From NCBI RefSeq assembly GCF_014196925.1, contig NZ_JACIEN010000001.1, positions 1,116,001 to 1,180,000 on the forward strand: DNA of 64,000 bases, written 5' to 3'. A program made the translations under genes and the position numbers. This document shows positions 39,837 to 43,051 of the stretch, in pieces; position 1 is the first letter of the stretch, and each line of letters begins with the position of its first letter. Source of the stretch: Chelatococcus caeni (GTDB lineage: Bacteria > Pseudomonadota > Alphaproteobacteria > Rhizobiales > Beijerinckiaceae). The notes beneath the pieces were generated by a model. That model did not search any database. It saw only the letters and a list, made by a program, of their open reading frames with translations, and had not been told where the DNA came from.

Positions 39837-40439
39837 ATGAGCGTCAACCTGACCGAGCTCGGTGAACATATCCTCGCATCGCTGCCGGGTGCGGCGAAGG
39901 CGGCGGGCGTCGGCTTCGACGAACTGACGATCTACGCCGAGGCGGGTGAGATCGTCCGCGTGCTGACCTTCCTGCGCGACGACGCGCGCTGCCGCTTCGT
40001 CAACTTCACGGACCTGTGCGGCGTCGACTATCCGGTGCGCGAGAAACGCTTCGACGTCGTCTACCACCTCCTGTCGCCGCACCATAACACCCGCATCCGC
40101 GTGAAGGTGGAGGCCGACGAGGCGACGCCCGTGCCCTCCGCCATCGGCGTCTTCCCGGCCGCCAACTGGTTCGAGCGCGAGGCCTACGACCTCTACGGCA
40201 TCCTGTTCTCCGGCCATCCGGACCTGCGCCGCATCCTCACCGACTACGGCTTCGAGGGCCATCCGCTGCGCAAGGACTTTCCGCTCACCGGCTTCGTCGA
40301 GGTGCGCTACGACGACGAGGAGAAGCGGGTGGTCTACGAGCCGGTGCGGCTCAACCAGGAATTCCGCAACTTCGACTTTCTCTCGCCGTGGGAGGGCACC
40401 GACTACGTGCTGCCCGGCGACGAGAAGGCCAAGGGGTGA
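39837..40439 (+). CDS. nuoC: NADH-quinone oxidoreductase subunit C
   Basis: 200 residues, 30-kDa subunit of the peripheral arm, no cofactor. Signature [20 protein letters not shown] (~114-133), then [17 protein letters not shown]. Ribosome site GAGGGGGGAAGG. A separate gene here, not fused to nuoD as in enterics. Its stop is 9 bp before the first heptamer repeat of the inserted element. Confidence 0.95.
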
Positions 40440-40447
40440 CGGCAATG

Positions 40448-40470
40448 GTCAGTCGGCAGTCGGCAGTCGT
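40448..40470. repeat. Left heptamer array, (CAGTCGG)x3
   Basis: Three tandem copies of CAGTCGG (the last ends in T) at 40450-40470. It matches, in inverted orientation, the degenerate four-copy array at 40866-40893. Together they flank the four-helix-bundle gene. Confidence 0.75.
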
Positions 40471-40490
40471 GACCGGGGAGGGGCGGTGCG

Positions 40491-40862
40491 ATGGATATCC
40501 AGTCGTATCGCGATCTTCGCGTGTGGCGCGAGGCTATGGAACTCGCGGAAGGCTGCTATCGGCTGACCGGTGGTTTCCCCAAGGACGAACTCTTCGGGAT
40601 GACGGCTCAGATCAGACGGGCTGGCGTTTCGATTCCCGCGAATATCGCGGAAGGATATGGGCGGGGGAGTGCCGGCGCGTACGTGCACTTTCTCAAAGTC
40701 GCGCAGGGATCTCTGAAAGAGCTGGAGACGCATCTGCTCCTTGCCGAGAGAGTGGGTTTGGCGGAAGGCGCGGCGATTACAAGCCTGCTCGAAGCCTGCG
40801 ACTCCGTCGGGAAGATGTTGCGGTCGTTGATCCGAGCGATCGAACGAGGGCAGAACGCGTGA
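40491..40862 (+). CDS. Four-helix-bundle protein, S23/IVS family (TIGR02436-like), inserted in the nuo operon
   Basis: 123 residues, family length. Starts MDIQSYRDLRVWREAMELAE, with the core motif QIRRAGVSIPANIAEGYGRG (~42-61) and QGSLKELETHLLLAERVG (~72-89). Ribosome site GGGGAGGGG. The fold is a small helical bundle first met in proteins encoded within 23S rRNA intervening sequences and related to the Avd accessory protein of diversity-generating retroelements. Function unknown. It lies between nuoC and nuoD, uses visibly less GC-biased third codon positions than its neighbours, and is bracketed by inverted heptamer arrays. These are signs of later insertion. Confidence 0.9.
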   Translation: MDIQSYRDLRVWREAMELAEGCYRLTGGFPKDELFGMTAQIRRAGVSIPANIAEGYGRGSAGAYVHFLKVAQGSLKELETHLLLAERVGLAEGAAITSLLEACDSVGKMLRSLIRAIERGQNA

Positions 40863-40865
40863 CCT

Positions 40866-40893
40866 TCGACTGTCTACTGCCGATTGCCGACTG
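40866..40893. repeat. Right heptamer array, inverted and degenerate
   Basis: TCGACTG, TCTACTG, CCGATTG, CCGACTG in tandem. On the minus strand these read CAGTCGG, CAATCGG, CAGTAGA, CAGTCGA, i.e. the left array turned round. It begins 3 bp after the stop of the four-helix-bundle gene and ends 35 bp before nuoD. Confidence 0.75.
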
Positions 40894-40928
40894 CCCCGAC
40901 GCAAACGCCACATGCCAGGCGCAACGCC

Positions 40929-42119
40929 ATGACTGAGCATCAGATCCGCAATTTCTCGATCAACTTCGGCCCGCAGCATCCGGCGGCGCACGGCGTGCTG
41001 CGCCTCGTGCTCGAGCTCGACGGCGAGGTGGTGGAGCGCGTCGACCCGCATATCGGCCTCCTGCACCGGGGCACCGAGAAGCTGATCGAGGCCAAGACCT
41101 ACCTGCAGGCGGTGCCCTATTTCGACCGGCTCGACTATGTCGCGCCGATGAACCAGGAGCATGCCTACGCGCTCGCCGTCGAGAAGCTGCTCGGCATCAC
41201 GGTGCCGCGGCGCGGCCAGCTCATCCGCGTGCTCTATTCGGAGATCGGGCGTCTCCTCTCGCACCTTCTCAACGTGACCACGCAGGCCATGGACGTCGGC
41301 GCGCTCACGCCGCCGCTCTGGGGCTTCGAGGAGCGCGAGAAGCTGATGATCTTCTATGAGCGGGCCTCGGGCGCGCGCATGCACGCGGCCTATGTGCGCC
41401 CCGGCGGCGTGCACCAGGACCTGCCCAACAAGCTCATCGACGATATCTGGGACTTCTGCGATCCCTTCCTCAAGGTCTGCGACGACCTCGAAGGGCTGCT
41501 CACCGACAACCGCATCTTCAAGCAGCGCAACGTCGACATCGGCGTGGTCTCGCTCGACGAGTGCTGGGCCTGGGGCTTCTCCGGCGTCATGGTGCGCGGC
41601 TCGGGCGCGGCGTGGGACCTGCGCAAGGCGCAGCCCTACGAGTGCTACGAAGAGCTCGATTTCGACATCCCGGTCGGCAAGAACGGCGACTGCTACGACC
41701 GTTACTGCATCCGCATGGAAGAGATGCGGCAGTCCATCCGCATCATGAAGCAGTGCCTCGAGAAGCTGCGCTTGCCCGAAGGGCAGGGCCCGGTCTCGAC
41801 GAGCGACCACAAGGTCGTGCCGCCCAAGCGCGGCGAGATGAAGCGCTCGATGGAAGCGCTCATCCACCACTTCAAGCTCTATACGGAAGGCTACCACGTT
41901 CCCGCGGGCGACGTTTACGCCGCCGTCGAGGCGCCCAAGGGCGAATTCGGCGTCTATCTGGTGTCGGACGGCACCAACAAGCCGTATCGCTGCAAGATTA
42001 AGGCGCCGGGCTTCGCCCATCTGCAGGCCATGGATTTCATGTGTCGCGGCCACATGCTGGCCGACGTCTCGGCCGTGCTCGGCTCGCTCGACATCGTGTT
42101 CGGCGAGGTCGACCGCTGA
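40929..42119 (+). CDS. nuoD: NADH-quinone oxidoreductase subunit D
   Basis: 396 residues from ATG 40929 ([20 protein letters not shown]), standard alphaproteobacterial length. The 49-kDa subunit forms the quinone pocket with Nuo[21 protein letters not shown] (~14-33), HRGTEKLIE, and the C-terminal [20 protein letters not shown]. The ribosome site is weak (AGGCG), possibly because the inserted element changed the upstream context. The stop overlaps the next gene's ATG by one base. Confidence 0.95.
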
Positions 42120-43051
42120 TGGCTTCGGCGCCGGCCATAGAAGGGACGGGCCCCGTGGCCTACGCATCCGGCTGGACTCCGTCGGAGCGTACGCGCCGCA
42201 AGGTGCTCGAGCCGCTGCGCCGGCGCGTCCTGGGGCCGCTCTTCACCCGTCTCGGCTACGACCTTCTGCCGGCCGTGCCGGAATGGGAGCACCGGCCCCT
42301 GTCGCGCCGCGAGGTCGACCGCCTCGTGCGCGGTGCCGCCCACCATATCGCCGTCGATCTGGAAGCCGCAGGCATCGCGGTGCCGGAGGACATGGAAGGC
42401 CTGGTGCGCGCCTTCTATGAAGACATCTGCCAGTGCCCCGTCCGCCAGAAGCACGGGGGCAACGGCTTCAACGGCGCGCTCGAGCTCTTCGTCGCCGCGC
42501 GGGCGCTCGCTCCCGACGTCATCATCGAATCGGGCGTCTTCCGCGGCCTGACGACCTGGGTGCTGCGCAAGGCCTGCCCCGAGGCGCGGATCTTCTGCTT
42601 TGACGCGGTCTTCGCCAATCTGCAGCACCGCGACCCGGCGGCCACCTATCACGAGGCCGATTGGTCGGGCTACGACTTCGGCGGGCTCGACCTGTCGCGC
42701 GCGCTCGCCTTCTTCGACGATCACATCGACCAGGCGCGGCGCATCATCGAGGCGGGGGAGCGCGGCCTTCGCCACCTCGTCTTCGACGACAATACCGCCG
42801 CCCATTGCATCCACGCCCATGGCGGCCCGGCCTTTCCGACCGTCGACATGGTGCTCGCCGACGACCTCGCGACGGAGCCGGTGCGCTGGCTGCGCAACGG
42901 GCGCGAGTTCGTCTACGAGGCGGACGCCTCCGTCATCGAAGCCGTCCGCGAGCGGGTCGAGACGGTGCGCAATTTCGATGATCTCCATGGCGTTACCGGC
43001 TATTCGCCGGCGCGCCTGACCTATGTGAAGCTCAAGGACAGGCGGATCTGA
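42119..43051 (+). CDS. Rossmann-like protein, possible SAM-dependent methyltransferase, inside the nuo operon
   Basis: 310 residues; ATG 42119 overlaps the nuoD stop (TGATG) and its own stop overlaps the nuoE ATG in the same way, so translation is coupled on both sides. The N-terminal ~60 residues are basic ([20 protein letters not shown]). The core has a motif-I-like strand-loop-helix [17 protein letters not shown] (134-150), then ARIFCFD (156-162) and [13 protein letters not shown] (218-230). These resemble CmcI/TylF-type methyltransferases, but the usual glycine pattern is reduced to S-G-V-F-R-G. Not a known complex I subunit. GC and codon use match the operon. Function unknown; a role in subunit modification is speculation. 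Confidence 0.65.

Follow-up and report, generated by a model that had tools for sequence, protein, structure and literature searches.

An S23 gene between inverted 7-bp arrays at the nuoC-nuoD junction of Chelatococcus caeni and its likeness to rRNA intervening sequences

The unit between nuoC and nuoD

The complex I operon of Chelatococcus caeni is split between nuoC and nuoD by a small unit that consists of one gene of the S23 family and two inverted arrays of 7-bp repeats. It lies in a stretch of 64,000 nucleotides (contig NZ_JACIEN010000001.1, positions 1,116,001 to 1,180,000), called the window here, whose own numbering is used below. The unit is discrete, and the same architecture surrounds most of the S23 genes sampled across phyla, including S23 genes inside 23S rRNA. 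Within an element the heptamer letters are common to both arms; between elements they differ, and they follow the S23 protein and not the host.

The open reading frame (ORF) of nuoC (39837-40439, + strand; supported by tblastn against relatives) closes with a stop codon at 40437-40439 that forms the left border of the unit. The left array (40443-40470, + strand) was read from the sequence and recovered by a repeat search and by a lag-7 test with shuffles. It runs CAATGGT-CAGTCGG-CAGTCGG-CAGTCGT. An earlier note on this DNA had described three tandem copies of CAGTCGG; the tandem array stands, with two perfect copies, one whose last base is altered and one further degenerate copy. A Shine-Dalgarno-like GGGGAGGGG (40475-40483, + strand; by eye) ends 7 nt 5' of the ATG of the S23 gene (40491-40862, + strand), which encodes 123 amino acids. 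The right array (40867-40894, - strand; same three lines of evidence) has four degenerate units in opposite orientation, as the earlier note had it, reading CGACTGT-CTACTGC-CGATTGC-CGACTGC on the + strand and GCAGTCG-GCAATCG-GCAGTAG-ACAGTCG on the - strand. The ORF of nuoD (40929-42119, + strand; also supported by tblastn) begins with an ATG at 40929, 34 bp past the right array.

The unit measures 452 bp (40443-40894) within the 489 bp from the nuoC stop to the nuoD start, and its removal leaves 37 bp; the clean fit proposed earlier holds, and the lengths given with it (about 445 and 45 bp) differ immaterially. Ungapped alignment of the two arms scores 15, a value reached in 0 of 2,000 dinucleotide shuffles, while the lag-7 periodicity amounts to 13/14 in the left array (0/2,000 shuffles) and 11/14 in the right (7/2,000). 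In the predicted RNA fold the arms close the unit (z -2.8; 1 of 100 shuffles equally stable). Codon usage is indeed less GC-biased than in the neighbours, with a GC content at third codon positions of 0.69 in S23, 0.92 in nuoC and 0.91 in nuoD.

The S23 protein

The gene product scores 122.2 bits against PF05635 (E 1.3e-35; curated cut-off 33.8 bits) and is a member of the S23 (23S_rRNA_IVP) family, as first proposed; no other S23 gene was found in this genome. Its AlphaFold model, a four-helix bundle with a pLDDT of 96.5, is matched by Foldseek to XCC0516 (PDB 2GSC) with a root-mean-square deviation (rmsd) of 0.7-0.9 angstrom. In sequence and fold the protein is like the known family, and what is new here is the array context in which the family is found. 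The available text of one report describes XCC0516 as a pentamer and the function of S23 proteins as not known (PMC4990558).

S23 also resembles Avd of diversity-generating retroelements (PDB 4DWL), likewise a four-helix bundle, and the accessible part of an earlier paper already points out the homology between PF05635 and Avd (PMC10053308). Against the seven best Avd chains, the model gives TM-scores by query of 0.74-0.78 and rmsd values of 1.6-2.1 with a Foldseek probability of 1.00, yet E is only 0.02-0.13 and identity to the Avd chains listed is 12-14%. In all 15 chosen pairs of close S23 genes, dN/dS is 0.05-0.20, indicating strong purifying selection; the protein has thus been kept functional in those lineages, unlike the decay reported for Coxiella.

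Heptamer arrays around S23 genes across phyla

Loci were taken from the best 80 of a profile scan (Alphaproteobacteria, Cyanobacteria, Planctomycetes, Chloroflexi, Acidobacteria and others), with 24 more from the order and further ones from the phylum. Among 138 loci, the window's own included, duplicates removed and kinship ignored, a 7-bp-period array was present on at least one side in 119 (left 92, right 97), with letters that differ between elements; a search for such arrays beside other members of the family had been suggested in the earlier note. Other periods were rare (lag 8 in 10 loci, lags 4-6 and 9-12 in 0-1). A first pass at a stricter threshold, on a set still holding duplicates, had found arrays in 71 left and 82 right flanks out of 113 each, one right-hand count being a run of N; of 214 control windows placed at 1.2-1.4 kb, only 4 had one. 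The survey of 138 leaves out four loci at the same place as, or near-identical to, others (L193, L197, L209 and L211) and flanks that are shorter than 100 bases or hold N. Four rows identical to other loci (L146, L152, L154 and L159) were omitted, as was L011, together with L009 in the tree and the survey; L008 and L010 had no S23 match to the query panel. L009/L011 is a second, frameshifted S23 copy outside nuo in one relative (G031, contig C3), with GCGTAGG-type arrays on both sides.

The two arms of a locus resemble one another. An arm-arm score of at least 14 was obtained in 103 of 138 comparisons within loci and in 66 of 552 between loci. Both arms carried arrays in 85 of 108 loci, and 81 of these fit ARTNGBV at 6/7 positions or more on both arms, a loose consensus that one third of single random heptamers fit equally well in their best rotation. 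Left and right units were identical in 54 of the 81, the mean Hamming distance being 0.40 within and 2.24 between loci. In other classes of the phylum, 7-bp arrays often have other letters.

Furthermore, the letters go with the protein. At 53 nuo-located loci, heptamer distance tracked S23 protein distance (rank r 0.33, 0/999 permutations), and a partial Mantel test with host NuoC/D distance removed left the value unchanged (0.33, 0/999), while heptamer and host distances showed no relation over the same loci (0.008, 418/999). Because the letters vary by element and follow S23, the protein is more likely a determinant of the unit than the mere cargo that it had been taken for, although it is indeed the sole gene there.

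Units of 8 bp were seen at nine S23 loci. On the S23 tree, four of them (L096, L099, L123 and L151) and, more weakly, L160 form one clade in company with nested 7-bp loci, their units differing in letters and agreeing in length; the other four (L214, L217, L218 and L219) were left off the tree. At least some of these loci have common flanks by eye, so the 8-bp units may be one old change.

At 78 loci outside nuo, a crude frame finder placed the nearest upstream frame co-directional with S23 in 52 and opposite in 18, and the nearest downstream frame in 58 and 10, respectively. Two S23 units lie between sugar-nucleotide genes (L188, gmd/fcl type; L198, rfbB/rmlD type), and such clusters are perhaps another recurrent site. 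Phage records gave no S23 match at E 1e-5.

Occupation of the nuoC-nuoD junction

Three congeners, with NuoC identities of 96, 93 and 82%, lack S23, and their nuoC-nuoD junction is empty (20-22 by alignment, or 13-15 bp from the nuoC stop to a TTG start by reading), in agreement with the discrete unit proposed at the outset. Of 59 sampled relatives, 7 carry S23 and 52 lack it. When the window's genome is included, the gene is present in 43 of the 397 genomes taken from the order and in 62 of the 398 taken from the phylum. Six of the seven S23-bearing relatives (all except G046) carry the gene at nuoC-nuoD, with heptamer letters that vary. Since the congeners are empty and arrays adjoin other S23 genes, neither of the outcomes that the earlier note had named as telling against it was found, namely the same gene and arrays kept in all relatives or a lack of arrays beside other family members.

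The unit is real here and is no local oddity: counting the window's and leaving out identical duplicates, 63 alphaproteobacterial loci are occupied at the same junction. At all of them S23 is co-directional with nuo, and no opposite orientation was seen among the loci with nuo matches. Relative to the nuoC stop, the median start of the left array is -2 bp, and 56 of 61 starts fall no more than 5 bp from that codon; between the end of the right array and nuoD the median distance is 16 bp. Two loci are odd: L143 has an extra stretch that separates the unit from nuoC, and L139 has an S23 frame that continues into nuoD. The share of nuo-located genes on the S23 tree (63 of 107) is biased upward, because the profile was built from seven nuo-located S23s and only the best 80 of at least 554 relatives were taken.

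Descent at this junction is not simple. Two genomes of one genus (G311 and G058), only 0.033 apart in NuoC/D distance, carry nuo-junction S23s that are 45% different, and their heptamers differ. The S23 distance is correlated with NuoC/D distance overall (Mantel 0.33, 0/999) and reaches a plateau of about 0.42 across NuoC/D distances of 0.15 to 0.4. On a tree of 107 S23s, which has few columns and unsettled bootstrap values, the label nuo or other needs 9 changes, at least 4 of which are forced by well-supported branches. In a single alignment, eight proteins from Cyanobacteria, Acidobacteria and Planctomycetales, these being best hits of a scan, share 59-65% identity with the window's S23, and six of its own family or order share 54-59%; the closest of all comes from the alphaproteobacterium Bosea (70%). 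Taken together, the flat S23 distances, the G311/G058 pair, the forced site changes and the cross-phylum identities speak for transfer of S23 and repeated occupation of one junction.

In some S23-free relatives, other small genes fill the nuoC-nuoD gap (L036, L037, L041, L042 and L048), and the junction is thus permissive; by a motif, four of these genes look like glutathione-dependent formaldehyde-activating-type proteins. Further along in the window, a 336-codon open frame (42041-43051) overlaps the end of nuoD and ends where the next long + strand frame begins (43051), and it looks like another extra gene in the nuo operon.

Relation to 23S rRNA intervening sequences

One genome (G615) has four S23 genes (L209, L210, L211 and L212), two of which lie inside 23S rRNA genes: the Rfam LSU match spans the insert at L210, and L211 is identical to L210 over 3,919 bp. 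These rRNA-located S23s have inverted 7-bp-period arms with lag-7 scores of 13 and 16 of 21. The rRNA intervening sequence (IVS) of Coxiella, as described in the available text of PMC4990558, has GACAGAT heptamers in strain-dependent copy number 5' of the S23p ORF and is excised by RNase III in vitro.

Like the IVSs of Coxiella and Leptospira, the window unit has one S23 ORF and terminal inverted repeats that close it, and its length (452 bp) is near the 428-444 nt given for Coxiella in that text; the sporadic presence typical of IVSs is also seen for the window's S23 among its relatives. In contrast to an IVS, it lies between two protein genes and both its arms are heptamer arrays, and unlike the Coxiella IVS, as far as the latter is described there, it has a Shine-Dalgarno-like site and relatives under purifying selection. 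As the unit lies outside an rRNA gene we class it as a variant of the IVS and not as a member, although the IVS is the nearest kind because the same architecture occurs inside 23S rRNA. The arrays of G615 within 23S rRNA and the Coxiella heptamers together make the window unit resemble an IVS placed in mRNA. The earlier note had the family name right; it used the IVS term for the protein family only, though the architecture of the element recurs inside 23S rRNA.

Dispersed heptamer arrays

Dispersed arrays of G-rich heptamers have been reported from Xanthomonas and Nostoc (GGGAATC and GGGGA(T/C)T). According to the available text of that report, they sit near stop codons on the coding strand, form convergent inverted pairs in Xanthomonas and few in Nostoc, and are generally not found with mobile elements; the same text has no mention of S23 or a helix bundle (PMC4692102). 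The Xanthomonas unit, rotated to AATCGGG, fits ARTNGBV in our reading and is, like the window's units, 7 bp long and G-rich. TAACTGA arrays have likewise been described without S23 in the portion of PMC4679880 available. In the open-access literature, subscription papers being outside the search, no paper was found in which S23 is linked to nuoC-nuoD or to arrays of dispersed heptamers. The tie between S23 and dispersed heptamers appears to be new, and heptamers within one IVS, that of Coxiella, were known before from the text cited (PMC4990558).

In the window's genome, two tandem CAGTCGG units with at most one mismatch match 76 times, overlapping matches included, 44 of them exactly, compared with 22 matches for a reversed control pattern. 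These arrays share the features of the Xanthomonas and Nostoc type, being tandem G-rich 7-bp units that are dispersed, near stop codons and in convergent pairs. Three tandem ARTNGBV units were counted in 80 genomes, of which 76 belong to the order and were compared, with the S23 unit's own arms included, overlapping units counted separately and kinship ignored. For the 36 S23-bearing genomes the median was 29 hits, 33 of them having any and 26 at least five; for the 40 S23-free genomes it was 0, nine having any and three at least five (p 4e-11). Reversed-pattern totals were 39 and 13. In eight genomes (G000, which is the window's, and G031, G051, G232, G294, G307, G408 and G412) the prevailing dispersed unit agrees, by eye, with the unit of the S23 found there.

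Adjacent arrays no more than 600 bp apart were convergent in 24 cases, five of which are S23 units, and divergent in one; this count covers seven genomes (G000, G014, G263, G294, G297, G412 and G031 in part) and leaves out isolated hits of G000. In the window's genome, 17 of 29 arrays (20 regions) adjoin, on the G-rich strand, the stop of a frame at least 100 codons long, as do 278 of 2,000 random positions. At twelve loci of this genome (L165, L167-L170, L173-L176 and L179-L181) CAGTCGG arrays adjoin or enclose, by eye, a second dispersed repeat like GTTTCCCGGGCGCATGCAGCG, and the two may form composite units.

Evidence on mobility

Mobility of the unit is inferred from its patchy presence and from incongruent trees. 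Near-identical copies at different sites, as expected of an insertion sequence or of a miniature inverted-repeat transposable element (MITE), were not found. Among the 66 S23 pairs with at least 80% DNA identity, the three whose flanks do not match on both sides all fall among L067, L072 and L088. L067 and L072 were considered as near-identical S23s at different sites and rejected, because L088 has the upstream side of one and the downstream side of the other, which suggests a single locus that was rearranged. In Calothrix brevissima NIES-22, two plasmids (L243 and L244) share a block of an integrase, S23 and hypothetical genes; these copies were also rejected as definers of the unit since the shared block is longer (gene coordinates only). 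A comparison of filled and empty nuo junctions, whose flanks have diverged, gave no clear target duplication by eye.

The mobile cassette proposed in the earlier note is supported in part: the unit is discrete and patchy, but no recent jump is seen and purifying selection acts on S23. In the window's genome there is no reverse transcriptase match (PF00078) and no Y1 transposase match (PF01797) at E 0.001. Reverse transcriptases occur in 16 of 36 S23-bearing and 13 of 40 S23-free genomes (p 0.35), and Y1 transposases in 7 of 36 and 3 of 40 (p 0.18). In one relative, a PF05635-like frame below the cut-off (L010, G029:C59:305716-305967; 23.6 bits) is followed on its own strand, after about 240 bp, by an RVT_1 match; this is probably the Avd-reverse transcriptase pair of a retroelement and not an S23 unit.

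Interpretation and alternatives

We favour, by a modest degree of confidence, the reading that the window unit is an IVS-type S23 element settled in a protein-coding operon, with a stem cut by RNase III, an S23 protein that recognises its own heptamer and only rare movement. The unit would be transcribed by read-through from nuo, and its arms would pair into a double-stranded RNA stem that is probably cut by RNase III. By analogy with fragmented 23S rRNA, such a cut would release nuoC and nuoD as separate messages, and on this proposal the insertion would be tolerated for that reason. The pentameric ring of S23 probably binds the heptamer units of its own element, in RNA or DNA and in a protein-specific dialect, and it may act in trans on array hairpins without S23 that are dispersed elsewhere in its genome. 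The element would move rarely and as a unit.

More tentatively, and with the odds rather against it, S23 may be the trans-acting factor of a bacteria-wide class of minimal mobile elements with protein-specific 7-bp ends (8-bp in one clade), of which IVSs, the nuoC-nuoD units and the dispersed hairpins would be forms and whose chemistry of movement has not been described. REPIN/RAYT systems and MITEs likewise combine small dispersed hairpins with a larger gene-bearing form. They differ from the present case in that the window's genome has no Y1 transposase match, no target duplication was seen and the ends are tandem 7-bp arrays.

Several observations weigh against the favoured reading. No recent jump was detected, as 63 of the 66 pairs match on both flanks. 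In Coxiella the S23p protein is apparently not made and is reported to be decaying, according to the available text (PMC4990558). At the threshold used, 19 of the 138 loci have no 7-bp array, five of these carrying 8-bp units, and in one genus the six loci (L203-L208) have weak arrays or arrays on a single side, none of them reaching the threshold on both. Position-by-position mirroring of the arms, which at first seemed present (109 loci, mean z 0.49 +/- 0.09), could be explained by degenerate end units and was rejected; it was gone once these were trimmed (13 testable loci, z 0.19 +/- 0.28), and so selection for pairing itself is not shown. The way in which dispersed arrays were counted also weighs on this side. 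Moreover, three S23-bearing genomes had no hit while three S23-free ones (G001, G030 and G054) had at least five, and four S23-bearing genomes of another class, left out of the comparison, had 0, 13, 0 and 5. By eye, the dispersed unit differs from that of the resident S23 in two genomes (G097 and G364) and is mixed in two others (G190 and G263). Four of the five small hairpins of the window's genome also occur in G001, which has arrays yet no S23, with arms that differ by 7 bp in two of them (L172 and L183), so the small hairpins are not recent. A clean empty site was not found for any of the five in G001 or G003, the latter being too diverged.

The best-surviving alternative, which we nevertheless judge unlikely, is a host regulatory module in which S23 regulates by binding RNA, the arrays that follow stop codons serve as its sites in 3'-untranslated regions, its own arrays provide autoregulation and only ordinary gene transfer takes place. 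Purifying selection on S23 fits such a module, as do the placement of arrays after stop codons on the G-rich strand in the window's genome, the similar placement in the available report on Xanthomonas and Nostoc (PMC4692102), the hairpins held at the same places in G000 and G001, and the co-occurrence of dispersed arrays with S23. However, an important regulator would hardly be as patchy as S23, which most relatives and all three congeners lack; different S23s also occupy the same junction in one genus, and G001 keeps its arrays without any S23.

It is improbable that the gene is an ancient vertical resident of nuoC-nuoD that was lost many times, with arrays that are neutral products of slippage. 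Close relatives do share S23 with the same flanks, divergence rises with host distance at short range, and the Mantel correlation with NuoC/D is in keeping with descent. Simple vertical inheritance was considered and rejected, being already strained by the plateau in S23 distance, the forced site changes on the tree and proteins of other phyla that are about as close as those of relatives. In addition, arrays occur at unrelated sites and inside rRNA, and the arms share letters that follow S23.

No higher a probability is given to retro-mobilisation, in which S23 would be an Avd-like partner that brings the RNA of the unit to a reverse transcriptase in trans, the arrays arising by repeated copying or slippage during cDNA synthesis. 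The fold shared with Avd, the constant co-direction with nuo wherever the unit is seen there and the change of whole 7-bp steps in two hairpins agree with this, but the window's genome lacks a PF00078 match and reverse transcriptases are not associated with S23 across genomes (neighbours of S23 units were not all scanned for them). That a resident HUH (Y1) transposase moves the unit, in the manner of REPINs and RAYTs, is very improbable; the convergent pairs of dispersed hairpins look REPIN-like, but PF01797 is missing from the window's genome and the difference between S23-bearing and S23-free genomes is not significant. Chance repeats beside an ordinary small gene, for which nothing but the shortness of the arrays speaks, are refuted by the shuffles and the cross-phylum survey, and their probability is practically nil.

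Implications

The origin of bacterial heptamer arrays is, to our knowledge, unexplained. S23 proteins and these arrays are two old puzzles, and they are joined here by the period of 7, the agreement between arms, the protein-specific dialect and co-occurrence in the order. This link allows function to be tested directly, each S23 against its own heptamer, and it makes S23 elements a candidate origin of the arrays. Units of the IVS type can live in the complex I operon, where RNA cutting might shift the balance of its messages.
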